From NCBI GenBank assembly GCA_030536575.1, contig JAUNPS010000035.1:1-53810 (forward strand): a DNA stretch of 53,810 bases. Direction: 5' to 3'. The DNA comes from Eubacteriales bacterium. Its GTDB lineage: Bacteria; Bacillota; Clostridia; Lachnospirales; Lachnospiraceae. The notes under the pieces are model-generated. The model was not told where the DNA came from, searched no databases, and saw only the letters and a list, made by a program, of their open reading frames with translations. The position numbers and the translations under genes were made by a program. Shown here one piece after another: positions 39,283 through 53,810 of the stretch. The first letter of the stretch is position 1; each line of letters begins with the position of its first letter.

Positions 39283-39348
39283 TTCCATTTTTACATGACC
39301 TGACAAAAGAAGGTTATGAATAGAAAAAGAATAAGAGGGGAGAAGCAG

Positions 39349-41148
39349 ATGAACAACAAAGAAAAAGCAGACAGAAATGCCGGAATCCGGGTGGCTGCGT
39401 ACATCCGGGTTTCCACCGAAAACGAGAATCAGAAAGATTCTTACGAGCTCCAGGAACAGTATTTTTTACGGCTGCTGTCGGAAAATGAGAGCTGGGTCTT
39501 TGCCGGAATTTATTCCGACTACGGAATTTCGGCCACAAACGACCGGAAGCGGAATGGATTCCAGAGGCTTTTGCGCCATTGCAGGGAAGGAAAGATCGAC
39601 CGTGTTGTGTGCAAATCGATTTCCAGGTTTGCCAGAAATACTGGAGATTTTATCACAGCTCTGCAAACACTGAAGGAGAGCAATGTGACCATTCTGTTCG
39701 AAAAAGAAAACATTGATACGGCAGAGCCGGTCAGTGACTTTATCATGACAACCCTGGGAGCCATTGCACAGGAGGAGAGCCGAAACATTTCGGAAAATGT
39801 CAGTTGGGGATTCCGCAAGCGGTACGCCAACGGAGATGCGCGAAATTTCACTATCTACGGCTACCGTTATGCGGAAGGGGAAAATGCTGTGGCCGTGACG
39901 GGAACGGGGTTTCAGCTTCGGAGGGTGGAAATTGTCGAAGAGGAGGCCGAAATTGTCCGGCGAATTTTTCGGGAGGCAGCAGAAGGGAAAAGCTACACCG
40001 AAATTGCGCGGCAATTAAATCTGGAACACATTGCCGCTCCGGAAGCCATCTGGACCCCAAAGCACAAACGAAAACGAGAGGGAACCGCCCCCAAAAAAGG
40101 GGAACTGAAAGAAGGAATCGACCAGGGATGGACAGCGGATTATATCCGGCACATGCTGAAATTGGAACGGTATACCGGAGATCTGATGCTCCAGAAAAAA
40201 TATACGGCCGATTACCTGACCCATTCCGTCCACAGAAATCACGGTGAGCGTCCGCAGTTTTACGTCAAAAATCATCATCCGGCGATCATCAGCCGGGAAC
40301 TATATCAGGAAGCACAGAAAAACAGTCCGGCAAGCGGTGCAGTCGGGACACCCGGCCGGGTGCGCTATCCATTTTCCGGAAGACTGGTCTGCGGGCAATG
40401 CGGCCGCTTTTATCATACGCGAAACCGACAGAGCCATCCGATTTGGTTCTGCCCCTCCAGTGTCCTGAATAATGGGAAAAAAGTCTGCCAGGCAACGCGC
40501 GTTTACGAAGAACAGATCATTTTAATGTTCCGAAAAGCAGTCGTAGAGCGTTTTAAGCTGGCGGAATTGTGTGAACCTGCCTGGGTACAGGAGGCGGTGC
40601 TTCCGGCAGGGGCGGCGGGATGCGATTTTGTATCGCAAATGTGTGAACGCCTTGAGGATCATCAGAATTCCGATTGTATGGAGCGGGACTGCGCATTCTT
40701 AAAAAAGCAGATTCTGGCAGCGAGTACCAGTCGGGCCGGCCTGGAAAAAAAGAGGATGGAATTGGATGCGAAGGGATATTTGACGACAGAAAGGCGGGGA
40801 GTGCTGAACGAAAAACTGGAAAATGCCAGGGAAGAGGAGCGAAATTTTACGGAACGGTTGAAACATCTGGAAACTTACCGGGAAGAGCTGGAGGCAGACT
40901 TTGCATGGAGGGCGAAAGCAATTGAGTGGATGAGACATTTGCCGCCCGGACAAAAGGGAATTGCCGGGTTTCTGGAGGGAATAACGGCGGAATACATGAA
41001 AGCTTTTGTGCTTTCGATTACGATTGATTCGCCGAAAAAATACCGGATTCACTGGTTTGACGATGTGTGGACAGAGGTAGAGATGGACTCGGAGATTGAA
41101 GATCACCGGGAAACGGCGTGGTGCGTGGGCGGCTTTGGGATGAGATAG
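39349..41148 (+). CDS. Large serine recombinase, first of pair
   Basis: A 599-aa site-specific recombinase. The resolvase domain (about 10-155) has the nucleophile serine in AAYIRVSTENENQKDSYELQ and the conserved SRFARNTGDF and ALAQEES-like AIAQEESRNISENV motifs. A recombinase domain follows, then a zinc ribbon (CGQCGRFYHTRNRQ ... WFCPSS) and a coiled coil. This is the architecture of phage and ICE integrases such as TnpX or phiC31-like enzymes. The start at 39349 follows AGAGGGGAGAAGC. The second recombinase begins 38 bp after the stop. No phage or conjugation genes are nearby. Confidence 0.9.
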   Translation: MNNKEKADRNAGIRVAAYIRVSTENENQKDSYELQEQYFLRLLSENESWVFAGIYSDYGISATNDRKRNGFQRLLRHCREGKIDRVVCKSISRFARNTGDFITALQTLKESNVTILFEKENIDTAEPVSDFIMTTLGAIAQEESRNISENVSWGFRKRYANGDARNFTIYGYRYAEGENAVAVTGTGFQLRRVEIVEEEAEIVRRIFREAAEGKSYTEIARQLNLEHIAAPEAIWTPKHKRKREGTAPKKGELKEGIDQGWTADYIRHMLKLERYTGDLMLQKKYTADYLTHSVHRNHGERPQFYVKNHHPAIISRELYQEAQKNSPASGAVGTPGRVRYPFSGRLVCGQCGRFYHTRNRQSHPIWFCPSSVLNNGKKVCQATRVYEEQIILMFRKAVVERFKLAELCEPAWVQEAVLPAGAAGCDFVSQMCERLEDHQNSDCMERDCAFLKKQILAASTSRAGLEKKRMELDAKGYLTTERRGVLNEKLENAREEERNFTERLKHLETYREELEADFAWRAKAIEWMRHLPPGQKGIAGFLEGITAEYMKAFVLSITIDSPKKYRIHWFDDVWTEVEMDSEIEDHRETAWCVGGFGMR

Positions 41149-41186
41149 TCCGTCAGGCGATTACAAAAGAGAAAAGGGGTAAAAAA

Positions 41187-43244
41187 ATGAGGAGTATGAA
41201 TCAAACAACAAGCGATCTGTCCCATGTGGAGATCATTCCGGCAACCAAACGTTCCGTTCAGAATGGAGGACAGTTAAAAGAGCGGAAACATCTGCGGGTG
41301 GCGGCTTACTGCCGGGTATCCACCGACGAAGACAACCAGCAAAATTCCTATGCAATGCAGAAGGCCTTTTATACCAAGATGATTCAGGATAAACCGGAAT
41401 GGATTTTTGCGGGAATTTATGCGGATGAAGCGATTTCCGGGACTTCCAGGGCGAGGCGCGTGCAGTTTAATTGTATGATTGAGGATGCGCTTGCAGGGAA
41501 GATGGATTACATTGTCACGAAATCCATTTCCAGATTTGCCAGAAATACGGTGGATACCTTAAACTGCGTGCGGCAGCTTAGGCAGCAAAATCCGCCGGTC
41601 GGCATTTTTTTTGAAAAGGAAAACATTGATACGCTGGACGCGAAAGGGGAGCTGATCCTGACGGTTCTTTCTGCGCTGGCGCAGGAGGAAAGCCGGTCGA
41701 TTTCGGAGAATATCCGTTGGTCTTTCCAGAAAAATTTCCGGGAGGGGAAGCAATATATCAATCTGAGCCGGATGCTGGGGTATGATGAGGGGAAGGATGG
41801 GGAATGGATTGTCAATCCGGAGCAGGCGTCCATTGTCCGCTATATTTTCAGTCGTTATCAATACAGCGCCAATGCCAGCGAAATTGCCAGGGAACTTAAC
41901 GACATGGGGAAGACTACGGTGAACGGAAATCCCTGGCGCGGAAGTTCGGTTTCTGATATTCTGCGGAATGAAAAGTATGTCGGAGACCTGGAAATGCAGA
42001 AGACCATAACGAAAAATTTCCTGACGCACCGCTCTACCCGAAATAAAGGCGAGGCGCCGAAGTATTATGTGGTCAATCATCATAAGGCAATTATTGACCG
42101 GCTGACGTGGGAAAAGGTACAGACGATGCTGCGGGAGCGGGAAGCGGGGGCAAAAGGTTCAGAAGGGAAACGAAAGAAGGGGCCGAAGGCGTCGCCTTTT
42201 ACAAATTTGCGCTGTGGAGAATGTGGGAGCGCTTTTTTTCGGCTTACGTATTCTTCGCAGATTGCGGATTATACGGATGAGAGGTGTCTTGCAAGCCAGG
42301 GGATTGATCCGGAGGGATACCGGGAGTACTATTCCTACGCCTATCCGATCTGGCGGTGTAAGCAGAAATATGGGAAGAAAGGGGAACGAAGGAAAGAGTC
42401 AGATGCAGAAAAAGCGGATAGAACCGAGAAATCGAAAGCGAATGCGCCTAAAGAGCGAGATGCTTCAACAGGGGGCTGTTCGTCTGAAATTATTCATGAA
42501 GCGGCGATTGAACAAAGCTTCATGGAAATGCTCTACCGTCTGAAGCACGATTATGTGGAAAATCGAGAAAACTCAGAGTTGGTAAAAAAATTTCAGGCAG
42601 TATATGAACAAACTTATCAAAAACGAAAAGAAAGCGATTATTCCCTGCAAAGGCTGGAACGCCTAAACACCCAAATACAGGAACTGGAAGAACAATACCA
42701 GAAAACCATCGAAAAGCAAGTGCTTGCGATCCAGGAAGGCGCAGATTCTTCCGAAACAGAAATTTATGGAAAGCTGGCGGCAGAGATCCGACAGAGGCTG
42801 GCCGAAAAAGCAGAAGAAAAAAGGCAGCTGGAGACGGAACCGACGGTTCCGGCGCTTATGAAACAAAACTTTGAATTTTTCCTGAATTGTCTCGAAGAAC
42901 TTTCTGATGTGAACCGCGCAGGCCTGCCGCTGAACATTTGGGGGGAAAGCGCGCACCAACCGGAAAGTTCCGGGGATGAGCTTGCGGATGCGCCGGATTT
43001 TCTGGAGTTTGCGACGGCGATTTATACGGATTTTTTTGTAAGGGGAGTTGTTTTGGGGGATGTGGTGAGGTTTGAGACGAATTTTGGGGTGGGGTTGGTT
43101 GGAACGGGGGTGCGGAGGAGTTTGAGGGATTTTGTGGGGTTTCGGAGGTGTACGGTGGAGGGGAAGGTGGAGGTTTTGAGGAGGACGTGGCAGGTGAATG
43201 GGAAGAAGGTGCAGTATAGGAGGAAGGAGGTGGGGAGGAAGTAG
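41187..43244 (+). CDS. Large serine recombinase, second of pair
   Basis: A 685-aa serine recombinase: VAAYCRVSTDEDNQQNSYAM (nucleophile Ser), SKSISRFARNTVDTL and SALAQEESRSISENIRW, then the recombinase domain, a zinc ribbon starting LRCGECGSAFF with a long insertion before WRCKQKY, and a coiled coil. It is only distantly similar to the first. The start at 41187 follows AAAAGGGGTAAAA. The last 70 codons use G-rich, almost C-free codons, unlike the rest of the gene. The pair probably acts together on a mobile unit, but no attachment site could be fixed. Confidence 0.9.
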   Translation: MRSMNQTTSDLSHVEIIPATKRSVQNGGQLKERKHLRVAAYCRVSTDEDNQQNSYAMQKAFYTKMIQDKPEWIFAGIYADEAISGTSRARRVQFNCMIEDALAGKMDYIVTKSISRFARNTVDTLNCVRQLRQQNPPVGIFFEKENIDTLDAKGELILTVLSALAQEESRSISENIRWSFQKNFREGKQYINLSRMLGYDEGKDGEWIVNPEQASIVRYIFSRYQYSANASEIARELNDMGKTTVNGNPWRGSSVSDILRNEKYVGDLEMQKTITKNFLTHRSTRNKGEAPKYYVVNHHKAIIDRLTWEKVQTMLREREAGAKGSEGKRKKGPKASPFTNLRCGECGSAFFRLTYSSQIADYTDERCLASQGIDPEGYREYYSYAYPIWRCKQKYGKKGERRKESDAEKADRTEKSKANAPKERDASTGGCSSEIIHEAAIEQSFMEMLYRLKHDYVENRENSELVKKFQAVYEQTYQKRKESDYSLQRLERLNTQIQELEEQYQKTIEKQVLAIQEGADSSETEIYGKLAAEIRQRLAEKAEEKRQLETEPTVPALMKQNFEFFLNCLEELSDVNRAGLPLNIWGESAHQPESSGDELADAPDFLEFATAIYTDFFVRGVVLGDVVRFETNFGVGLVGTGVRRSLRDFVGFRRCTVEGKVEVLRRTWQVNGKKVQYRRKEVGRK

Positions 43245-44107: not shown

Positions 44108-44110
44108 GTG

Positions 44111-45406
44111 ATGGGAAAGAAAAAGTTGGTGATTTATGCACATTATTACATACCAGATACTGCATCAACAGGCCAGATACTTCGAGAACTCGCAGAGGGA
44201 ATGTCAGGAAAGTTTGACATTACCGTAATCTGTGTCGTTCCGTCTTACCTTGGAGCCATTGAAGATAAATACAAGACGAAGAAATACTACGAAGAAAACA
44301 TAAACGGTGTGAAGGTGCTTCGCATCAGGGTACCGGAATTCAGCAAAACCAATAAGAAGAGCCGCATTAGGAACATTGTTGCTTATTTCTTTGGTGCAAT
44401 GAGCGCTACATTCAAGGTTGGGAAGATGGATTATGTTTTTTCCATTTCGCAGCCGCCCATCTTAGGCGGCCTGCTTGGCGTATGGGGCAAATGGGTAAAA
44501 CATGCTAAGTATATCTACAATATCCAGGATTTCAACCCGGAGCAGACAATTGCTGTCGGTTACAGTAAAAACAAGTTCATCACAGATCTGATGATGTGGT
44601 TTGACAAGTTTAGTTGCCGGAGAAGCGACCTGATTATCACTGTTGGGCGTGACCTTGTGGGGACTGTGGAAAAACGATTCGAGGGAAAGAAAATGCCTAA
44701 AACAGTGATGATCAACAACTGGATTGATGAAAAAGAAATTTATCCTCTGCCAGAGAATCATTCGAAGGTGGCTGAGTTCAGGAAGAAGTTTGGTCTGGAT
44801 AATAAATTTGTCATCATGTATTCCGGTAACATCGGCCTGTATTATGACCTTGAGAAGCTTATCAAAGTTTTGAAACAGTTCCGAAAAGGTTATACGTTGA
44901 CCGGAGTGTACGAGGAAGGATCCAAAACAGCAGATGGCCGAGAAGTGGTTTTTGCATTTGTCGGGGCTGGTTCGGTTCTAGATAAGCTAGTGTTGTACAG
45001 TAAAAAACATCACTTTGAAAACATTGTGTTTATACCATATCAGAACAAGACGGATCTTATATATAGCCTGAATGCCGGTGATGTCCATTGGTGTGTGAAC
45101 GCCAAAGGCATCAAAGGCGTGAGTTGTCCGTCAAAAGCATATGGCATCATGGCAGCAGGAAAGCCCATCATCGGCGTGCTTGAAGAAGGTACAGAAGTGC
45201 GTGGGCTGATTGAAGAGTGTCATTGTGGCAAATGCTGTGAGCCAGGGGATTACGTTGAAGTAGCGGATATTATCCGCTGGTACATAGAGAACGCTGGGAC
45301 TAGTGAAGTGAAGCAGATGGGGATGAACGGCAGGAAGTACCTGGAAGAAAAACTGACTAGGGAAGTGAGTGTGCAGAGGTATGCTGAAGAAATTTTGAAA
45401 GTATGA
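44111..45406 (+). CDS. Glycosyltransferase family 4, WbuB-like
   Basis: A 431-aa GT-B glycosyltransferase. The N-terminus (LVIYAHYYIPDTASTGQILRE) and NIQDFNPEQTIAVG are typical of WbuB-type sugar transferases for O-antigen or capsule. The donor-binding part has FIMYSGNIGLYYDLEKL-like and CPSKAYGIMAAGKPIIGVLEEG motifs. The start is ATG at 44111 or GTG at 44108; AAGGGAGGGA at 44091-44100 fits either. It is the first gene of the polysaccharide locus and much more AT-rich than genes before 43 kb. It ends 9 bp before the next gene. Confidence 0.85.
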   Translation: MGKKKLVIYAHYYIPDTASTGQILRELAEGMSGKFDITVICVVPSYLGAIEDKYKTKKYYEENINGVKVLRIRVPEFSKTNKKSRIRNIVAYFFGAMSATFKVGKMDYVFSISQPPILGGLLGVWGKWVKHAKYIYNIQDFNPEQTIAVGYSKNKFITDLMMWFDKFSCRRSDLIITVGRDLVGTVEKRFEGKKMPKTVMINNWIDEKEIYPLPENHSKVAEFRKKFGLDNKFVIMYSGNIGLYYDLEKLIKVLKQFRKGYTLTGVYEEGSKTADGREVVFAFVGAGSVLDKLVLYSKKHHFENIVFIPYQNKTDLIYSLNAGDVHWCVNAKGIKGVSCPSKAYGIMAAGKPIIGVLEEGTEVRGLIEECHCGKCCEPGDYVEVADIIRWYIENAGTSEVKQMGMNGRKYLEEKLTREVSVQRYAEEILKV

Positions 45407-45415
45407 AGGAGAAGA

Positions 45416-46477
45416 ATGAAGACTCAAAAGCCTAAAAAGGAATTTAGCCACAAAGTAACATTAGTTTCGTTTATTATGTCAATTTTTGTCATATATATTC
45501 ATGCAAACAACCTTGCATATTATGGCATTGATGCGAATGGAAACACAATTGCAAATCTTACAGTGAACATTCTGGGTAATTTTATTGGAGAGATTGCAGT
45601 GCCGTTTTTCTTTATGATGTCAGGCTATTGGCTTTTCAGGATGGATGTTGAAAAAGATGATATATGGAAATGTCTGGGATCTAGACTGCGAAAAAAAACA
45701 AAGACACTTGTAATTCCATATTTGTTATGGAATACATTTGGTATGATTTTTTATATGACGATTACACATATTCCTTTTATAAGTTCAATGATGAATAACG
45801 GTGATGTAATATCTGTCAATTTTTCAAATATATTTGAAGGGATTTTTCTACACAAGTATTACTTTACTTTTTGGTATATGCAGGATTTGATAGTTTTAAC
45901 ATTCGTATCTCCAATCTTCATGTTTTTATTAAAAAAGATAAGAAGAGGAGTATTTGCATTGATAGCCACTTTTCTCCTGAATCTCATAGATATAGATTTG
46001 GTGATATTTGGAACATCATCTCTTTGGTTTTTCTTTTCTGGTGCATTTATGGCCGTTTTTCTTAAAGAAAAATTTGAGAAACGTAACAATGGATGGATTT
46101 ATTTGGGGGCTTTTATAGTTATGGGGATACCCAGATATTTTGAGACTGCAATAATTGGTGATATATGTTATTTATTTTCCCCAATGATATTGTGGAAAGC
46201 ATTTGATGCTTTGCTACCTAAAAGAGCAATTGAAAATACGCCTTACTGGTTTGAGAACCAGAGCTTCTTCATATATGCTGCCCATGTTATTCCTGTCACA
46301 ATTATAGGACATTTGTTTGCAAAAATGGGAGGGAGCGTTGGGTGGGCAACCATAAGCTATTTAATTGCTCCGTGGATAACATTGGGGTTACTGTTTTTAG
46401 GAGCTAAGACCTTAAACATCATAATGCCAGGCTTTTATAATCTGATATGTGGAAACAGAGGAAGAAATAGAAATTGA
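45416..46477 (+). CDS. Acyltransferase 3 family membrane protein, first
   Basis: A 353-aa protein with about ten membrane segments of the acyltransferase-3 (OafA-like) family, which adds acetyl or other acyl groups to surface sugars. Motifs: FIMSIFVIYIHANN with the family histidine, VPFFFMMSGYWLF and SFFIYAAHVIPVTI. The ribosome site GAAGGAGAAG precedes the ATG. The next gene's ribosome site overlaps its stop. It is very AT-rich. Confidence 0.85.
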   Translation: MKTQKPKKEFSHKVTLVSFIMSIFVIYIHANNLAYYGIDANGNTIANLTVNILGNFIGEIAVPFFFMMSGYWLFRMDVEKDDIWKCLGSRLRKKTKTLVIPYLLWNTFGMIFYMTITHIPFISSMMNNGDVISVNFSNIFEGIFLHKYYFTFWYMQDLIVLTFVSPIFMFLLKKIRRGVFALIATFLLNLIDIDLVIFGTSSLWFFFSGAFMAVFLKEKFEKRNNGWIYLGAFIVMGIPRYFETAIIGDICYLFSPMILWKAFDALLPKRAIENTPYWFENQSFFIYAAHVIPVTIIGHLFAKMGGSVGWATISYLIAPWITLGLLFLGAKTLNIIMPGFYNLICGNRGRNRN

Positions 46478-46488
46478 GGGAGGTGAAC

Positions 46489-47076
46489 ATGAATAGTAAC
46501 TGGTTTAAACTAATCATGAAACTTACGAAAGTAGAATATGGGAAAAATCTCCTGCTGAAGGGCATGCCAGTGATCTTTAACAAAAGCGGGGCCAGACTGA
46601 AAATTGGCGAAAATGTAACGGTTAAGAGCAGCTTCTTAAGCAACTTGGTTGGCTTGTATAGTCGTACTATTATCGTAACCCGTGCATCGGGCGCAGTCAT
46701 TGAGATTGGCGACAATGTGGGAATTTCAGGTGCGACCATATATGCCCGCAAGGGAATATATATAGGGGAAAATAGTTGTATCGGTGGAAATTGTAAGATT
46801 TTGGACAATGATTTTCACCCGTTGGAAGTAGAAGCGAGAAACCGACTGCTGCGCGATGCCAATGGAGGTGACAGCGACTTAGTGCCGGCCAAAGAAATAA
46901 GGATAGGAAAGAATTGCTTCATTGGCTGTAACGCGATCATCCTGAAAGGCACAGTGCTGGGGGATGGATGCGTTGTAGGTGCGGGGGCCGTAGTAAGCGG
47001 GAGATTTGAAGGAAACTGTGTGATTGCCGGGAATCCGGCGAGGGTGATAAGAGATTTAAAAGAGGGAATATTATGA
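46489..47076 (+). CDS. Left-handed beta-helix acyltransferase
   Basis: A 195-aa hexapeptide-repeat acetyltransferase of the WcaF/LacA/MaT group. Repeats such as IGENVTV, IGDNVGISGA, IGENSCIGGN, IGKNCFIGCNAIIL and GAGAVVSG are visible, with the catalytic-type histidine in NDFHPL and the C-terminal AGNPARVI. It probably acetylates a sugar of the polysaccharide. The start at 46489 follows AGGGAGGTGAAC; the TTG at 46474 is less likely. It overlaps the next gene by 4 bp. Confidence 0.88.
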   Translation: MNSNWFKLIMKLTKVEYGKNLLLKGMPVIFNKSGARLKIGENVTVKSSFLSNLVGLYSRTIIVTRASGAVIEIGDNVGISGATIYARKGIYIGENSCIGGNCKILDNDFHPLEVEARNRLLRDANGGDSDLVPAKEIRIGKNCFIGCNAIILKGTVLGDGCVVGAGAVVSGRFEGNCVIAGNPARVIRDLKEGIL

Positions 47077-48104
47077 GGCAAATATGTTTTATAACAGTGG
47101 TTTTATTAATATTCTACGGAGCTGATTTTCTACTAACCAGTAATGAACAATCTTTTACTTTTTTATCTAAAAGGCATACTACAATATTGAAAGGTGTTGC
47201 GATTTTCACGGTAGTATGGGGACATATGACTGCTCAGCTTGGGATTAAGCATATCCAGATGATTGCAGAAATAGGGGTATGGATTTTTCTTTTCTGCTCT
47301 GGGTATGGATGCATGAAATCTGCTCAAAAATCAGGAATTAAAGGCTTCTGGAGAAGGCGTTTTTTTAAAATTATTTTACCATTTTGGATATGTGAATTAA
47401 TAGGATTGATTTTCACAAAAAGATTTACTTTGCACTTATATATTATGGATGTAACTTTTGTTAAAGCAGCAACTTCTTATGGGTGGTTTATGGGATATTT
47501 AATGCTATATTATATAGCATTTTGGCTTTTGGAAAAGACTCAAATAGTGCTAAAAAGAAGAGAATCTTTTGCCTTGAAAGGGATAATGATATTTGCGGTA
47601 TTCATATTCATTTATTTCAGCACAGTATCTGTTAATCCGCTATTTCCGGCACTCCGTGCAAGACAAATTTTGGCTTTCCCATTGGGAATGTTTGCAGTGG
47701 ATGGTAAGAATTATTTTGCCACACTTATAAAATGGGTAAGCTCAAAAAGCGAGGAACGCATTGGGGCTGTAGGCGCAACCCTTCTGATATCTGGGGGGGG
47801 GTGGAAGCTCATCACTAAATACTTAGAGACTAGAATGCCATATTTGATTTCTAATATGACCGCATTACTGGCAGCAACGTTGTGCGGAATAGCTTTTATT
47901 TTATTATCAGTTTGTTGCAAAAAACTATTTTCAAAAAGATATTTTTTTATTTTAGGAAAATATTCTTTTTCGATATATATGGTTCATGCTTTTACACTTA
48001 ATCTACTTAACGGAAATCTGAGCGGAAGTATTGCTTTTTTACTTAGTACAGGAGTACTTTGTGTTATTCTCCAAAATACTTTGATAAAAGCTTTTCAGAG
48101 ATAA
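47073..48104 (+). CDS. Acyltransferase 3 family membrane protein with internal poly-G tract
   Basis: A 343-aa acyltransferase-3 protein (LKGVAIFTVVWGHMTAQLG with the family histidine; IFLFCSGYG; YSFSIYMVHAFTLNLL), about ten membrane segments. Codons 241-243 are GGG-GGG-GGG, part of a 9-G run at 47793-47801. As sequenced the frame is intact and full-length. One G fewer or more gives stops within about 11 codons, truncating the last 100 residues and the final membrane segments. It starts inside the stop of the preceding gene (ATGA). Confidence 0.85.
   Translation: MRQICFITVVLLIFYGADFLLTSNEQSFTFLSKRHTTILKGVAIFTVVWGHMTAQLGIKHIQMIAEIGVWIFLFCSGYGCMKSAQKSGIKGFWRRRFFKIILPFWICELIGLIFTKRFTLHLYIMDVTFVKAATSYGWFMGYLMLYYIAFWLLEKTQIVLKRRESFALKGIMIFAVFIFIYFSTVSVNPLFPALRARQILAFPLGMFAVDGKNYFATLIKWVSSKSEERIGAVGATLLISGGGWKLITKYLETRMPYLISNMTALLAATLCGIAFILLSVCCKKLFSKRYFFILGKYSFSIYMVHAFTLNLLNGNLSGSIAFLLSTGVLCVILQNTLIKAFQR
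47793..47801. repeat. Poly-G tract (9 G) inside acyltransferase gene
   Basis: Nine consecutive G in an AT-rich gene. In frame as read; minus-one reads to TAG and plus-one to TAA within 8-11 codons after the tract. This is a typical contingency tract if its length varies. Confidence 0.85.
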
Positions 48105-48128
48105 AGAGGGAATGATGGAGGTAAGAAT

Positions 48129-49058
48129 ATGGTTGATTTAACAGCAATTATTTTAACAAAAAATGAAGAAAAGAACATTGAAAAATGTATTAAGTCTATT
48201 AGGTCGGTAGCAAAAAGGATTATTGTTGTAGACAGCTATTCGGATGATGATACGATTAAAATTGCGGCAAATCTGGGGGCAGATATTTATCAGAATCCAT
48301 TTATCAACTATGCAACGCAGTTTAATTGGGGCTTAAACCATACTGGGATCAATACAGAATGGGTTTTACGTATTGATGCGGATGAAGAATTCACAGAAGA
48401 GCTATGCAATGAAATAAATGAAAGGTTACCGAATATTAATGAAAACATTACGGGTATGACTATAAACCTTCGCATTGTATTTATGGGCAAATGGCTCCGC
48501 CATGGAGGAATGTATCCTTGGAAGCTCCTTCGTATTTTCAGATTTAAGGCGGGCTTTCTTGAAAACAGAAATATGGATGAACATGTTGCGTTGAAATATG
48601 GTGAGGTCGGTCAGTTTAAAAGCGACTTTATCCATCATGACTTTAAGGATTTGAATTATTGGACGCATAAACATAATTGGTATTCAAACAGGGAAGTAAA
48701 AGATTATTTTGAACATCATGAACTACCAGAACAGTCTATGAAGAATAAGTGGGCTATGAATAAAAGAAAGATGAAAAATGGGGTGTATTATAGATTGCCT
48801 AAATTTTTTAGGGCGCATATGTTCTTTATTTATAGGTATTATTTAAAATTGGGATTTCTTGATGGGACAGAAGGAAAGATATTCCATTTCCTGCAGGCAT
48901 ATTGGTATAGATTTTTAATTGATGCAAAAATCCACGAGTGTGAAATAACAGGGAAACGATATGAAGATCAAGGGGCATTAAATTCCTTAAGGGGGGGGTA
49001 CACACTAAGTAGATTTGGAGGCTGCCATTTTAAAGCTGTAAAGGCGGTGGCAGCATGA
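48129..49058 (+). CDS. Glycosyltransferase family 2, WaaE/KdtX-like, copy 1
   Basis: A 309-aa GT-A glycosyltransferase. LTAIILTKNEEKNIEKCIKS, VVDSYSDDDT and the DxD region RIDADEEFTEEL are typical; the rest resembles WaaE-like beta-glucosyltransferases. It is a paralogue of the next gene. Homology ends at about residue 286. The last 22 residues (RGGYTLSRFGG...VAA) are read through an 8-G run and have no counterpart in the paralogue, which stops at LKS. The frame as sequenced reaches a TGA that overlaps the ATG of copy 2. GGAGGTAAGAAT is its own ribosome site. Confidence 0.87.
   Translation: MVDLTAIILTKNEEKNIEKCIKSIRSVAKRIIVVDSYSDDDTIKIAANLGADIYQNPFINYATQFNWGLNHTGINTEWVLRIDADEEFTEELCNEINERLPNINENITGMTINLRIVFMGKWLRHGGMYPWKLLRIFRFKAGFLENRNMDEHVALKYGEVGQFKSDFIHHDFKDLNYWTHKHNWYSNREVKDYFEHHELPEQSMKNKWAMNKRKMKNGVYYRLPKFFRAHMFFIYRYYLKLGFLDGTEGKIFHFLQAYWYRFLIDAKIHECEITGKRYEDQGALNSLRGGYTLSRFGGCHFKAVKAVAA
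48991..48998. repeat. Poly-G tract (8 G) at the end of GT2 copy 1
   Basis: Eight consecutive G directly after the end of the conserved region. The frame in use runs on to 49058. The other two frames stop at 49006-49008 (TAA) and 49010-49012 (TAG). Confidence 0.85.
49046..49058 (+). promoter_or_regulatory. Shared coupling module at the GT2 copy 1/copy 2 junction
   Basis: GGTGGCAGCATGA combines a ribosome-site-like GGTGG, the ATG of copy 2 and the TGA of copy 1. The same 13 bases occur at 51185-51197 between the two GT4 paralogues. GCTGCCA at 49022-49028 can pair with TGGCAGC at 49048-49054, which would mask the start when not translated. Confidence 0.6.
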
Positions 49059-49960
49059 TTGATTTAACAGTTATTATCCTTACAAAAAACGAGGAAAAAA
49101 ATTTAAAAAAATGTGTCGAATCATTCGGGGGTATAGTTAAAAGATTTGTTATTGTTGATAGTTTTAGCACGGATAATACAGGGACATTGTGCCACCAACT
49201 TAATACGGAATTAGCAGAATGTGGAGCGTCACTGGATTTATTTCAGCATAAATGGACTTCATATGCTGATCAGTTGAATTGGGGATTACAGAATACAGAT
49301 ATTACGACAGAATGGTCCATGCGCATGGATGCAGATGAAGAATTAACGGAAGCTCTGGCAGCGGAGATTGAAAATAAGCTTCCAAAGGTTGAGACACCTG
49401 TAAATGGAATTATCCTGCGCCGCAGGGTCTATTTCATGGGCCGTTGGATCAAACATGGCGGCCGTTACCCTGAACTACTGCTTAGGATTTTCCGCACGGG
49501 GAAAGCATCCTGCGAAATGAAGATGATGGATGAGCATATGATACTTTCAGATGGTAAGACAGTTGAATTTGAGCATGATCTGATCGACAACAATCAGAAA
49601 GACCTGGATTGGTGGATTGCCAAGCATAATTGGTATAGCAATCGTGAAGTCCTGGATCATCAGCTGACATTGGAAAATACAATAGATGAGGGGCTTGAAC
49701 ATGGCGGTGTATCGTCTGGACAAGCGAGAATGAAAAGGGTGATAAAAAACAGTGGATACTATAGGTTGCCAAGGTTCTTTAGGGCGCATTTGTATTTTAT
49801 CTACCGTTACTATATAAGGTTTGGGTTCCTTGACGGGCCTGAAGGTAAGATATTCCATTTCCTGCAAGCTTATTGGTACCGTTTTTTAGTGGATGCAAAG
49901 ATATATGAATGTGAAAAGCATGGAACAAAAATGAACCCTCAGGGGGACTTAAAATCTTAA
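49055..49960 (+). CDS. Glycosyltransferase family 2, WaaE/KdtX-like, copy 2
   Basis: A 301-aa paralogue of the preceding gene with the same motifs (LTVIILTKNEEKNLKKCVES, VIVDSFSTDNT, RMDADEELTE, and the shared ending EGKIFHFLQAYWYRF). It stops shortly after QGDLKS without a poly-G run. Its start overlaps the stop of copy 1. The two probably transfer sugars to different acceptors or use different donors. Confidence 0.88.
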   Translation: MIDLTVIILTKNEEKNLKKCVESFGGIVKRFVIVDSFSTDNTGTLCHQLNTELAECGASLDLFQHKWTSYADQLNWGLQNTDITTEWSMRMDADEELTEALAAEIENKLPKVETPVNGIILRRRVYFMGRWIKHGGRYPELLLRIFRTGKASCEMKMMDEHMILSDGKTVEFEHDLIDNNQKDLDWWIAKHNWYSNREVLDHQLTLENTIDEGLEHGGVSSGQARMKRVIKNSGYYRLPRFFRAHLYFIYRYYIRFGFLDGPEGKIFHFLQAYWYRFLVDAKIYECEKHGTKMNPQGDLKS

Positions 49961-49982
49961 GCGAATAGGAGGCAAAGTTTAC

Positions 49983-51197
49983 GTGACAAATGGGAAGAAA
50001 GATATATTGATTATAATGGGCAGATACCTTCCCGGATACAAGGACGGCGGACCTGTCCGCTCTATAGCGAATCTGGTTGAATACCTTGGGGACGAATATA
50101 ACTTTAGGATTCTTACTTGCGACAGGGATCATGGCGATACAAGGCCGTACCCCAATATAAAGGTGAACGATTGGAATCAGGTAGGGAAAGCACTTGTATA
50201 TTATGTTGTGCCAGGTGGCTTTACCCAGAAAATAATCTCTAAGCTTTCAAATAAAGCAGATTTGGTCTATGTATGCGGATGCTTCAGCGATTATTCAATT
50301 AACGCTCTTATTGCAAAACGAATTGGGAGAATAAATGCGCCGGTAGTAGTGGCCGCTATGGGGTTATTTTCCCCAATGGAATTTCAACGCAAATACAGAA
50401 AAAAGAAAGTATTTATAACTGTATTTAATAAAACTGGGATGTTCAAAAACATATATTGGTCCGCGACCTCAGAAATGGAAGTCGGTGAAATTAAGGAACA
50501 AGTCCATGCAAAAGATGACCAGTTCTTTGTAGCGGAAGATTTGCCAAGAATGGTCGATCCAACGCCAATAAAGAAGAATAAGGGCAGAACTCTTGAAGTG
50601 GTATGGATTTCCAGGATTGCTGAAAAGAAGAACTTGAAGGGAGCGATAGAAATCCTGATGAAAGTAAATTCAAAGATAAATTTTACGATCTATGGGCCCG
50701 TGCATGACCTGGAGTATTGGCAGAAATGCCAGGAGAAGCTGAAAGAATTACCTGGAAGGGTTAGCTGGGAATATAAAGGAAATATAGATTCAGAAAAAGT
50801 GGTGGAAACCCTTAAACAATACCATGTATTCCTTTTCCCAACGCTTGGGGAAAATTATGGGCATGTAATCCAAGAAGCTTTGTCCGCTGGATGTGTTGCA
50901 ATCCTTTCAGACCAAACGCCTTGGCAAGACTTAGAAGAGCAGGGCGTGGGATATGTTTTCAAAATTGAAGAAACAGAAAAATATGCTTTGGCTATTGAAA
51001 AATATGCGTCCATGAATGAAGGACAGATCCAGGAAGTATCAGACAAGGCTTTGCAGTATGCTATGGATAACAGTAATAGAAAGGTTATGAAAACGGGATA
51101 TCGCAGAATATTTAATACTCTCCCAGAAAATCGGGGGGGGGTATTAGAAGGTAGGCATTTCTTGCGCTGTAGTTCCTGTATGGAGGTGGCAGCATGA
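49983..51197 (+). CDS. Glycosyltransferase family 4, copy 1, with 3' poly-G tract
   Basis: A 404-aa GT-B glycosyltransferase: IMGRYLPGYKDGGPVRSI at the N-terminus, VWISRIAEKKNLKGAIEI and FPTLGENYGHVIQEALSAGC in the donor-binding half. It is a paralogue of the next gene. Homology ends near KTGYRRIFN; the tail RGGVLEGRHF...MEVAA is read through a 9-G run and ends at a TGA overlapping the ATG of copy 2. The start is GTG at 49983 after AATAGGAGGCAAAG. Confidence 0.87.
   Translation: MTNGKKDILIIMGRYLPGYKDGGPVRSIANLVEYLGDEYNFRILTCDRDHGDTRPYPNIKVNDWNQVGKALVYYVVPGGFTQKIISKLSNKADLVYVCGCFSDYSINALIAKRIGRINAPVVVAAMGLFSPMEFQRKYRKKKVFITVFNKTGMFKNIYWSATSEMEVGEIKEQVHAKDDQFFVAEDLPRMVDPTPIKKNKGRTLEVVWISRIAEKKNLKGAIEILMKVNSKINFTIYGPVHDLEYWQKCQEKLKELPGRVSWEYKGNIDSEKVVETLKQYHVFLFPTLGENYGHVIQEALSAGCVAILSDQTPWQDLEEQGVGYVFKIEETEKYALAIEKYASMNEGQIQEVSDKALQYAMDNSNRKVMKTGYRRIFNTLPENRGGVLEGRHFLRCSSCMEVAA
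51133..51141. repeat. Poly-G tract (9 G) near the end of GT4 copy 1
   Basis: Nine consecutive G just after the conserved region. The frame in use runs on to 51197. The other frames stop at 51145-51147 (TAG) and 51152-51154 (TAG). Confidence 0.85.
51185..51197 (+). promoter_or_regulatory. Shared coupling module at the GT4 copy 1/copy 2 junction
   Basis: GGTGGCAGCATGA, identical to 49046-49058. Here it is preceded by GGA, giving a strong GGAGGTGG ribosome site for copy 2. Confidence 0.6.
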
Positions 51198-52324
51198 GGA
51201 AAATCTTAATTATAATGGGCAGATACCTTCCCGGCTATAAAGATGGCGGACCTGTAAGGTCTATAAAAAACCTTACAGATTATCTGGGAGATGAATATGA
51301 ATTCAGAATCTTGACTACGGACAGGGATCATGGTGACACGGATTCATATCCTGCCATAAAGAAAAATAGCTGGAATCGCGTTGGAAAGGCCATGGTATAT
51401 TATGTGCGCCCTGGTGGGTTCAGACAGAAGCTTATAATTGAAATCTCAGAACAAGCAGATATGGTTTATGTCTGTGGCTGCTTTAGCGATTATTCTATTA
51501 CCACGCTTATTTTAAAAAGAATAAGACAAATTAAAAAACCGGTAGTTATTGCATCGATGGGACTGTTCATGCCAAATGCGATGAAGAAAAAGCCTTTGAA
51601 GTATAAATCATTTATTACAGTATTCCGGTGCCTTGGAATGTTTAACAATATTATGTGGTCCTGCAGTTCAGGGTTTGAGGCTGAATGTACAAGGAATATT
51701 ATCGGAAAAAGAGCTAGATGTTTTATAGCTGAAGACCTACCACGTATGGTTAATCCAGCTCCGATTATTAAGAGTAAGAAAACGGGAGAGCTTAGGGTGT
51801 TTTTTATTTCGCGGATATCTCCAGAAAAAAATCTGCTTCAAACTATAGAAATACTGAAACTTTGCAAGGGCAACATATGGTTCACGATATATGGTCCCGT
51901 TCACAATGAATCATATTGGGAAAACGTTAAGCAAGAACTCAAAAAACTTCCAGGTAATATTCATGCAGAATATAAAGGGAATATAGAATCAGAGAACGTT
52001 ATAGAGACATTAAAAAAAGAGCATGTGTTTCTCTTTACGACAATAGGAGAAAATTTTAGCCATGTTACGCAAGAGGCTTTATCAGCAGGTTGCCCATGTG
52101 TGATTAGCGATCAGACTCCTTGGAATGATTTAGAAGAGAATGGCTGTGGATTTGTGCTTCCATTAAAAGATAATAAAGCTTTCGCTAAGAAAATTGACCA
52201 ATATGCATTGATGGATGAACCAGAATTTCAAAGAGCCGTACATGCTGCGCATTCATATGCTATAAAAGTGAGTAATAATAAAGTAAAAAATACAGGATAT
52301 AGAAAAATATTTAACATCGAATAA
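51194..52324 (+). CDS. Glycosyltransferase family 4, copy 2
   Basis: A 376-aa GT-B protein, paralogue of the preceding gene over its full length (IMGRYLPGYKDGGPVRSI, VFFISRISPEKNLLQTIEI, FTTIGENFSHVTQEALSAGC). It ends normally at RKIFNIE without a tract. The first 27 bases of conserved coding sequence are nearly identical to copy 1, so homologous recombination between copies is possible. Confidence 0.88.
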   Translation: MRKILIIMGRYLPGYKDGGPVRSIKNLTDYLGDEYEFRILTTDRDHGDTDSYPAIKKNSWNRVGKAMVYYVRPGGFRQKLIIEISEQADMVYVCGCFSDYSITTLILKRIRQIKKPVVIASMGLFMPNAMKKKPLKYKSFITVFRCLGMFNNIMWSCSSGFEAECTRNIIGKRARCFIAEDLPRMVNPAPIIKSKKTGELRVFFISRISPEKNLLQTIEILKLCKGNIWFTIYGPVHNESYWENVKQELKKLPGNIHAEYKGNIESENVIETLKKEHVFLFTTIGENFSHVTQEALSAGCPCVISDQTPWNDLEENGCGFVLPLKDNKAFAKKIDQYALMDEPEFQRAVHAAHSYAIKVSNNKVKNTGYRKIFNIE

Positions 52325-52336
52325 AAAGAGGAAATG

Positions 52337-53461
52337 ATGAGAGTTTTATATTTAACAAATATACCATCTCCATATCGGGTCGATTTTTTTAATGAACTAG
52401 GTAAGCTTTGTGACCTTACTGTTTTATTTGAGACACGATATTCAAAAGAGAGAGATGAAAGATGGGTGTCAGAGACGGAAACACATTATAGACCAGTATT
52501 CATGAGAGGTATACGGCATGGAGTTGCAGAGGCTATATGCCCTGAGGTTATCAAATATTTGTCTCCGGAAAAATTTGACATAATAGTAGTTGGAATGTAT
52601 TCATCTCCTACAGGAATGATTGCAATAGAGTATATGCGTTTAAAAAAAATAAAATTTATTTTGAACACGGATGGTGGCTTGATTAAAGAAGATAATGGGA
52701 TTCGGCACAAACTCAAAGCGCACTTTATTGGAGCCGCTTCTGCATGGCTAAGTACTGGTGATATGGCAACCGATTACCTTTGCTATTATGGAGCGAAAAG
52801 AGAAAAGGTTTATAAATATCCATTTACTTCTGTGAAACGGGATGAAATCATATCTGCAAATTCGATGAGTGGGGATATGAAGAATTATATGAAGAAACAG
52901 TTGGGAATAAAGGAAGAGAAAATTATTCTTACTGTAGGAAGATTTACATATGAGGAGGGTTATGGAAAGGGGTATGATTCAATACTTAAAGCAGCAGAGA
53001 GAATAGACCCCAGTATAGGAATCTATATTGTTGGCGATGAGCCAACTGAAGAGTTCATCAAATGGAAGGATGAGAAAAACTTAACCCAAGTTCATTACAT
53101 TGGGTTTCAAAAAAAGAATGAATTAGCAAAATTTTATGCCGCAGCTGATTTGTTTGTTCTTATGACAAAAATGGATGTTTGGGGGCTTGTTATTAACGAG
53201 GCAATGATGTACTCATTACCCGTTATAACAACAGACCAATGTGGTGCAGGGGTGGAGTTAGTACGAAATGGTGAGAATGGTTATGTTATACCCGTGGGTG
53301 ATTATGACTCCCTTGCAGAAAAAATTGCTTATATCTTGTCAGATTCAAACGTGACATGTGGGTTTGGGAAGAGAAGTTATGAGATCATTTTTAACTATAC
53401 ACTTGAGCAAATGGCCGACTGCCATTATAAAACATTTGAAAAGTTGGGGGGGGATACGTGA
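52337..53461 (+). CDS. Glycosyltransferase family 4 ending at a poly-G tract
   Basis: A 374-aa GT-B glycosyltransferase: RVLYLTNIPSPYRVDFFNEL, then IILTVGRFTYEEGYGKGYDS and KMDVWGLVINEAMMYSLPVI. Full length for the family. The final codons TTG-GGG-GGG-GAT-ACG-TGA contain an 8-G run. ATG at 52337 has better spacing from AAAGAGGAA than the ATG at 52334. Directly after its stop lies a related GT4 C-terminal half in another frame. Confidence 0.87.
   Translation: MRVLYLTNIPSPYRVDFFNELGKLCDLTVLFETRYSKERDERWVSETETHYRPVFMRGIRHGVAEAICPEVIKYLSPEKFDIIVVGMYSSPTGMIAIEYMRLKKIKFILNTDGGLIKEDNGIRHKLKAHFIGAASAWLSTGDMATDYLCYYGAKREKVYKYPFTSVKRDEIISANSMSGDMKNYMKKQLGIKEEKIILTVGRFTYEEGYGKGYDSILKAAERIDPSIGIYIVGDEPTEEFIKWKDEKNLTQVHYIGFQKKNELAKFYAAADLFVLMTKMDVWGLVINEAMMYSLPVITTDQCGAGVELVRNGENGYVIPVGDYDSLAEKIAYILSDSNVTCGFGKRSYEIIFNYTLEQMADCHYKTFEKLGGDT
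53446..53453. repeat. Poly-G tract (8 G) at the GT4/GT4-fragment junction
   Basis: Eight consecutive G, three codons before the stop of the upstream gene. With 7 or 10 G the upstream frame would continue into the downstream GT4 half without a stop up to the end of the window. Confidence 0.85.
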
Positions 53462-53810
53462 ACTGATTAGACAGTATTCAAAAGAAAAAATTGGTATACA
53501 TGAGAAGAAAATAGTGCTGGCTGTAGGTCAGTATATTTATAGAAAAGGATTTGATATTCTTTTAAAAGCAAGTGAAATGCTTGATAGTGATATAGGTATC
53601 TATATAATTGGTGGAGAGCCAACAAAAGAATATCTTCAGATAATAGAAAACTATGGACTTCATAATGTTCACTTTGCTGGTTTTATGAATAAAAAGGAAC
53701 TTTCAGATTATTATAAAGCAGCTGATTTGTTTGTACTTCCTACCAGGGAAGACGTGTGGGGATTAGTAATAAATGAAGCATTAGCATATGGATTACCAAT
53801 AATTACAACT
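53454..53810 (+). CDS. GT4 C-terminal half, 5'-truncated, continues past the window
   Basis: An open frame running off the right end. It encodes IRELIRQYSKEKIGIHEKKI, then IVLAVGQYIYRKGFDILLKA, IGGEPTKEYLQ and REDVWGLVINEALAYGLPII: the donor-binding half of a GT4 closely related to the gene just upstream. The N-terminal acceptor-binding half and a normal start codon are missing. The frame is open back through the poly-G tract, so it could be made as a fusion after a one-base loss. It could instead be a remnant of a tandem duplicate or an assembly join. Confidence 0.6.
   Translation, partial: MRELIRQYSKEKIGIHEKKIVLAVGQYIYRKGFDILLKASEMLDSDIGIYIIGGEPTKEYLQIIENYGLHNVHFAGFMNKKELSDYYKAADLFVLPTREDVWGLVINEALAYGLPIITT

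Follow-up and report, generated by a model that had tools for sequence, protein, structure and literature searches.

In textbook operons with translational coupling and an occluded start, the stop codon of one gene overlaps the start codon of the next, and upstream ribosomes open that start. Phase variation at the 3′ ends of genes is known from Neisseria, for which Snyder et al. 2016 is reportedly the paper cited. Here we describe a polysaccharide locus of a bacterium of the family Lachnospiraceae that may combine the two. It lies on a contig of 53,810 bases (JAUNPS010000035.1 of assembly GCA_030536575.1), which was analysed over its whole length and is called the window, and it contains four poly-G tracts, T1 to T4. 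T2 and T3 are located at the junctions of tandem glycosyltransferase genes of families GT2 and GT4, where stop and start codons overlap as in the coupled operons, but those operons lack a hypervariable tract. On balance, and with considerable reservation, we regard T1 to T4 as probable slipped-strand contingency sites of a surface-glycan operon, which would control the passage of translation into the paralogue or domain that follows.

Phase variation at simple repeats is usually read as the on/off switching of a single gene, and the gating of translation into the next paralogue would, if true, be different. In Neisseria, a surface-sugar gene can carry a poly-G tract at its 3′ end, a position like that of T2 and T3, and the length of the tract determines whether there is a normal end, an extension or a fusion to the next gene, as exemplified by kdtA (PMC5953494). 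There, the C-terminus is altered or two genes are fused, and the available part of that paper makes no mention of a stop at the next start, an occluding hairpin or a tandem paralogue. The G8/G9 heterogeneity of Campylobacter cgtB switches a glycosyltransferase (PMC6437147). T1 and a GT11-like gene on another contig of the genome resemble this on/off system, whereas T2 and T3 are unlike it, since the cgtB tract is within the gene and, in the available text, causes simple truncation. In the RepG/tlpB-hp0102 system of Helicobacter pylori, the length of a G-repeat also controls a downstream glycosyltransferase gene of the operon, but it does so through a small RNA acting on a repeat in the leader, and the authors, in the part of the paper at hand, consider that direct translational coupling is less likely to be the cause (PMC8295292). 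The GeneTack survey, as far as its available text goes, puts phase variation and translational coupling in separate classes (PMC3711429). Our literature search, which mostly did not extend to subscription papers, found no report joining repeat-driven phase variation with the coupled, occluded start of a tandem paralogue. A preliminary description of the window had presented the placement of tracts at gene ends as a new arrangement. It is already known that poly-G tracts switch sugar transferases and that 3′ tracts can alter C-termini or fuse genes, the latter from Neisseria (PMC5953494, in part); what would be new is a slipping tract that gates the occluded start of a tandem paralogue.

Poly-G tracts of the glycan locus

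The window corresponds to contig C57 in full, in a 4.81-Mb genome of 100 contigs (90.7% complete, 3.1% contamination). The coding strand of its glycan locus contains G runs at positions 47793-47801 (nine bases, T1), 48991-48998 (eight, T2), 51133-51141 (nine, T3) and 53446-53453 (eight, T4), in agreement with the preliminary description. Its statement that the locus has no other G run above five and the window none as long was also correct: other G runs of the locus have at most five bases, the next-longest runs of the window are two G6 outside the locus (38532 and 42940), and beyond T1 to T4 the window contains no G run of at least seven and no C run longer than five. When the locus (44108-53810, 38% GC) was shuffled 500 times with its dinucleotides preserved, 101 runs of at least eight G arose, or 0.2 per shuffle compared with the four observed. 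With G8-G9, all four tracts have lengths taken as sufficient for slipping; the threshold of at least nine G, which PhasomeIt applied for Neisseria according to the available part of the paper (PMC5953494), is reached by T1 and T3 only.

From position 44108, the locus encodes a GT4, an acyltransferase, a hexapeptide transferase, an acyltransferase with T1, GT2a with T2, GT2b, GT4a with T3, GT4b, GT4c with T4, and a duplicate C-terminal domain. Frame analysis indicates that a one-base change in length alters the predicted product at each tract, and the tracts would be used in three ways, as an on/off switch (T1), as stop-or-go junctions (T2 and T3) and for domain fusion (T4). The 3′ tracts change the predicted C-terminus, by an extension at T2 and T3 and, in one phase, by fusion to the duplicate domain at T4.

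Junctions of the tandem glycosyltransferase genes

GT2a (48129-49058, + strand; PF00535, E 4e-14) is the first copy of the GT2 pair and has a C-terminal extension past its tract. It is 50% identical (E 2.6e-111) to the second copy, GT2b (49055-49960, +). The GT4 pair consists of GT4a (49983-51197, +; PF00534, E 5.8e-16), also with a C-terminal extension, and GT4b (51194-52324, +), which share 59% identity (E 2.2e-159). T2 (+ strand) begins just beyond the end point of GT2b and two close relatives: GT2b has the C-terminus QGDLKS, and the relatives at loci L025 (QGDLKA) and L026 (QGELKV) end at the same point. Six of 11 loci with GT2a relatives were compared (L024, L027, L029, L030 and L032 were left out); two of the six relatives end with GT2b, four end earlier and none later. 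Both GT2a and GT4a extend beyond the usual end point into tract and tail. The preliminary description had placed three tracts at the 3′ ends of first copies. This is correct for T2 and T3 and for the lack of a tract at the ends of GT2b and GT4b; T4 is followed by a duplicate of a C-terminal domain and not by the start of a GT4, and T1 is in the middle of an acyltransferase gene and not at a junction.

The T2 tail (48999-49058, +) is open in one phase only, in which its TGA overlaps the ATG of GT2b, and the other phases reach stops 10 and 14 nt past the tract. The tail of T3 (51142-51197, +), which contains GGAGGTGGCAGCATGA, is likewise open in one phase and ends with a TGA overlapping the ATG of GT4b, with stops of the other phases 6 and 13 nt past T3 (+ strand). 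The tails are 19 codons (T2) and 18 codons (T3) long and both end with GTGGCAGCATGA, preceded by GGC at T2 and GGAG at T3. The present lengths of T2 and T3 correspond to the read-through phase, with the stop/start overlap ATGA at 49055 and 51194. In dinucleotide-shuffled tails, the pattern of two near stops and ATGA arose in 110 of 2000 cases for T2 and 94 of 2000 for T3.

A search of the family (397 genomes, with set E limits) identified relatives of GT2a in 12 genomes and of GT4a in five, including the genome studied here. No G run of at least seven was found near the GT2a relatives in the 11 other loci (2.4-3.9 kb each), and one of the four other GT4a loci (L090) has a G7. The exact tail with G8 and GGTGGCAGCATG is present in one of the 397 genomes, our own. 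In L025, a GT4a-like start, recognized by eye, follows the GT2 gene.

A hairpin with arms at 49021-49029 and 49046-49054 (+) is predicted at T2. It takes in the Shine-Dalgarno region of GT2b as far as its ATG, and in the predicted fold the GCTGCCA of the T2 tail pairs with TGGCAGC beside this ATG. The predicted energy for opening the start region is 13.5 kcal/mol, compared with 7.1 kcal/mol for shuffled sequences, and 2 of 200 shuffles were as high. A weaker structure (51158-51201, +; 11.2 versus 8.4 kcal/mol shuffled) is predicted over the start of GT4b at T3. When nine starts of the operon were compared, those at T2 (13.6 kcal/mol) and T3 (10.6 kcal/mol) had the highest opening energies; the rest were in the range 1.3-8.4 kcal/mol, six of them at 1.3-2.9 kcal/mol. 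The opening energy of the whole start region discriminated better than the per-site accessibility of the Shine-Dalgarno sequence, which showed a weak shift (0.28 versus 0.35 unpaired; 23 sites).

Based on the observed frames, stops, overlaps and paralogy, the recurrence of the layout described below and the predicted hairpins, we infer slippage at this locus, coupled initiation and an effect on the glycan, and a mechanism can be proposed. The first copy would always be translated, and the phase of the tract would decide the fate of the second. In the go phase, one of three, ribosomes would read about 20 extra codons, through the structure that hides the start of the second copy, and termination on this start may let these or other ribosomes initiate there. 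In the two stop phases, ribosomes would leave 6-14 nt past the tract, and the second copy would be poorly translated. The proposal of the preliminary description that tracts at gene ends control the reach of translation into the next paralogue is consistent with the frames, the ATGA overlaps, the predicted hairpin at T2 and the recurrence in L102, L250, L253 and phages; it does not apply to T1 and T4, which would serve for on/off switching and domain fusion. If the mechanism is true, one operon gives a population mixed in one-copy and two-copy states, and such switching has a place in the glycans of Lachnospiraceae.

Similar junctions in other bacteria and phages

A tandem GT2 pair in a metagenome-assembled genome labelled Ruminococcus sp. 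(L102) has G7 at the end of the first copy and a tail with the same GAGGTGGCAGCAT. The tail ends GAGGTGGCAGCATAATG, and its predicted opening energy is 13.4 kcal/mol versus 9.4 kcal/mol for shuffled sequences (10 of 200 as high). The second copy (L102:8956-9861) is broken by an in-frame stop. In G211, another Lachnospiraceae genome, the first of two PglD/hexapeptide acetyltransferase genes (L253; pair E 1.5e-26) has a G9 at its end; the two are uncoupled at the present length and coupled in one other phase. At a second junction of this locus (L259), a G7 precedes a hexapeptide transferase gene. In G324 (L250/L258), a further genome of the family, the frame of a transketolase-type gene ends RGGVKRGIERLYRHNLRKEVAA on the ATGA of a gene for a thiamine pyrophosphate (TPP) enzyme, with an opening energy of 15.9 versus 7.8 kcal/mol shuffled (0 of 200). 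By eye, the setting resembles a nucleotide-sugar locus, in which a GT2 gene contains another tract, a G8. The pairing of a transketolase-type with a TPP-enzyme gene indicates that the two genes at a junction do not have to be close paralogues. A relaxed junction pattern matched 32 of the 397 family genomes, and 30 of the 37 places listed were analysed. An upstream open reading frame of 60 residues was lacking at 22 of these places, six were promoter-like, and four were coupled, namely T3 (L241), L250, L253 and the promoter-like L235.

Junctions of the same layout are present in phage contigs of IMG/VR, which were searched with a pattern that is blind to reading frame but requires TA after the tract. 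There were 36 matches in 35 stretches, representing 35 distinct tails after one duplicate was removed, of which 17 had an upstream open reading frame of at least 60 residues. Fourteen of these 17 junctions are coupled, compared with 7.5 expected from shuffled tails. Both other phases stop within 14 nt in 11 of the 14, a feature favoured by the TA in the pattern, and 10 of the 14 have an opening energy in the top 5% of shuffles. Coupled matches (18) fold more strongly than other pattern matches (47) with a Mann-Whitney p of 1.6e-4, which is optimistic since many matches are related. The genes joined are similar at E≤1e-3 in 15 of 26 junctions by two-sequence BLAST, in a table in which the next ATG was misplaced in two rows (one of L187, and L227). 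Among 25 junctions, from the window and elsewhere, 17 had an opening energy that no more than 10 of 200 shuffles attained; the full design was present at 20 of the 25 (0.76 expected), a biased figure because coupling was required when the set was chosen.

Across the junction set, the shortest tracts have 7 G and the longest 11. L184 (G8) and L216 (G7) share an 82-nt junction that is otherwise identical and are in different phases, while their surrounding 1.1 kb is 79% identical. This one-G difference, read from phage contigs, is the only direct sign of slippage. Both contigs contain three tracts. L187 encodes three tandem copies starting with MLDH(M/L)(L/I), of which the first two are followed by tracts and the third is not, and proteins of L206, L207, L208, L219 and L227 start with ML..NGK. 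The phage junction genes are probably tail-region genes, as suggested by weak PHROGs matches, by relatives in tail genes of Lactobacillus phages and by position. Of ten phage proteins compared with PHROGs, three had a tail family as match at E≤0.01, and one of these matches was good; a fourth protein matched a family of unknown function and the other six none. An L184 protein has matches within long tail-region genes, in two records of Lj965 and one of PM411, and L206 matches an XkdX-family gene of Lactobacillus phage KC5a over 3% of the query. Searches of GenBank phage DNA with the L184, L185 and L216 regions returned no match. With other patterns, one IMG/VR search returned six stretches, of which L182, L183 and L186 were left out of the comparison, and another returned none. 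IMG/VR stretches L221-L224 contain a G7 tract and no junction, and the contig of L220 ends exactly at the G8 of a phage junction, as if the assembly had broken there.

We think it quite possible, while leaning slightly against it, that phages and bacteria have a general device in common, in which a poly-G tract, near stops and a start-occluding hairpin with a Shine-Dalgarno sequence are placed between tandem paralogues, so that slips set the number of units translated. Such a device would vary the sugar chain in glycan operons and tail-region proteins in phages, and a sister form would add a second GT4 C-terminal domain. That tandem phage genes are joined in a similar way points to a shared solution, or to an exchange of parts, on the two sides of the phage-host interface.

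Alternative explanations

Several observations weigh against the gating of the second copies by T2 and T3. The structure at T3 does not reach significance, 35 of 200 shuffles being as high, and the start of GT4a, at 8.4 kcal/mol and with no tract before it, is as unusual as that at T2 in the comparison of operon starts (5 of 200 shuffles each). More than 10 of 200 shuffles reached the opening energy at eight of the 25 junctions, namely T3, two of L184, one of L187, L225, L191, L199 and L215. L253 is without a significant hairpin, L259 is strong by the z score of its fold but not by opening energy, and the other phases of L250 (3 and 34 nt) and L259 (20 and 36 nt) are not both immediate stops. 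Among bacteria the strict junction pattern is uncommon: of 358 genomes phylum-wide, one has it, our own. Many of the phage junctions, being from related phages, are not independent of one another, and the direct sign of slippage comes from phage contigs and none from the species of the window. The assembly, in 100 contigs at 90.7% completeness and 3.1% contamination, may misreport tract lengths. Finally, the strong Shine-Dalgarno sequence GGAGGTG at T3 might allow GT4b to initiate uncoupled.

One alternative is ordinary 3′-end phase variation, in which slippage would change the C-terminus of the first copy only and the second copy would be made from its own Shine-Dalgarno sequence. Because the GT4a control scores like T2, slight weight shifts from gating to this explanation, which we nevertheless consider rather unlikely. 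GGAGG sequences resembling Shine-Dalgarno sites precede many of the next starts, the extension of an acyltransferase with a 3′ tract in genome G014 (L046) falls short of the next gene, and Neisseria has 3′ tracts that alter C-termini, as the available part of the report describes (PMC5953494). However, stops on the next ATG, start-occluding folds and tandem paralogues from several sources are not predicted by it. Programmed ribosomal frameshifting on the G run, which would produce a fixed ratio of short and long products without switching of the tract length, is quite improbable. A G7 would fit a −1 slippery heptamer and phage tail genes use frameshifting, but related phage junctions are in different phases (L184/L216 and L208/L219) with no fixed frame relation, and tract lengths span the whole range from 7 to 11.

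The extension could also act as a degron similar to the ssrA tag, so that the long phase would destroy the first copy while making the second, in an exclusive switch. AA-ending tags act as protease signals, and the tmRNA tag of the host, ANNNEELLAAA, ends in AA. VAA terminates the extensions of T2 and T3, the coupled phase of L102, L250 and L259, and several phage junctions. The in-frame Shine-Dalgarno sequence GGAGGTGGC by itself encodes E-V-A, and some junctions end in EVA, RVA, RAA or EVAPSC; the degron was set aside as the principal explanation for these reasons, and we give it a small chance. It is very improbable that the G runs are chance or assembly artefacts. The assembly is a draft, but the excess of runs over the shuffled locus, a tract aligned with T1 in another species and the junction layout common to other genomes and phages all argue against this.

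Proposed fusion of a duplicated domain at T4

GT4c (52334-53461, +; PF00534, E 4.9e-34) is a complete GT4 that in the present phase stops 8 nt past T4. T4 (+ strand) separates it from a duplicate of its C-terminal domain (53454-53810, +; PF00534, E 4.3e-25), which is cut by the contig end and shares 52% identity with residues 182-300 of GT4c (E 6.6e-42). The duplicate is out of frame with GT4c at the present length, and one other phase reads into it. The phase of T4 would therefore decide whether the GT4 has its own C-terminal domain only or also a second copy. A GT4 gene on contig C49 of the same genome (L007) is in frame through a G9 into its own duplicate C-terminal domain (61.6% identity, E 2.5e-83), and a GT4 of genome G014 (L047) has the same layout of tract and duplicate domain (42.6% identity, E 1e-48); in both genes the other phases stop within a few codons. 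The C-terminal domain of GT-B enzymes binds the sugar donor, and a second one might change donor choice.

Probable switching of an acyltransferase gene at T1

T1 (+ strand) is in the middle of the acyltransferase-3 gene AT3b (47073-48104, +; PF01757, E 1.4e-22), at about residue 240 of 343. The frame is open at the present length, and the other phases run into a stop codon that starts 14 or 22 nt beyond the tract; the acyltransferase would be switched on or off by frame. A named strain of Brotaphodocola catenula has nine G at the aligned site (L099:7678), in a related acyltransferase gene located directly upstream of a GT2, as AT3b is in the window. Judged from these sequences, T1 resembles conventional on/off phase variation that has been retained across species.

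Poly-G tracts in the genome and in Lachnospiraceae

The whole genome contains 22 distinct tracts of at least eight G, eight of which are in glycan genes: four in the locus of the window, three on contig C49 and one on contig C13. Pfam identified seven of the eight genes, as GT2, GT4, GT11, acyltransferase-3 and hexapeptide transferase; the eighth, on C13, is GT2-like by eye. The three tracts on C49 (L007, C49:38000-56000), at L007 positions 7346, 8090 and 10259, belong to a second glycan locus. Its GT11-like gene with G10 stops early at the present length, and the C-terminal motif is in another frame. The tract on C13 (L002, C13:60000-76000; L002 4565-4577) comprises 13 G, the longest found in the genome, and is situated near masked N stretches and beside a flippase-like gene identified by eye.

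The preliminary description had held poly-G tracts to be no standard feature of Lachnospiraceae, which the wider survey does not support. Runs of at least nine G are present in 18 of 25 family genomes and in 29 of 41 genomes in all, mostly a few in each, with our genome at the high end of the counts, and intragenic tracts were found in glycosyltransferase and acyltransferase genes of other genera. Several G9 tracts were found in G014, another genome of the family, in genes for GT2, GT4 and acyltransferases (L045, L046 and L047). Some Lachnospiraceae tracts are flanked by a −35-like box upstream and, immediately downstream, a −10-like box (L229, L235, L237, L248, L252, L255, L064 and L077), and one tract of our genome, on contig C78 (L012), is by eye in a promoter-spacer-like position. 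Tracts in promoter spacers are a possible second form of phase variation; a promoter consensus check flagged 2 of 63 tracts from about 15 genomes. Upstream of the glycan locus, at 39316-43244, the window contains two large open reading frames that by eye resemble serine recombinases, which suggests an integrated element.

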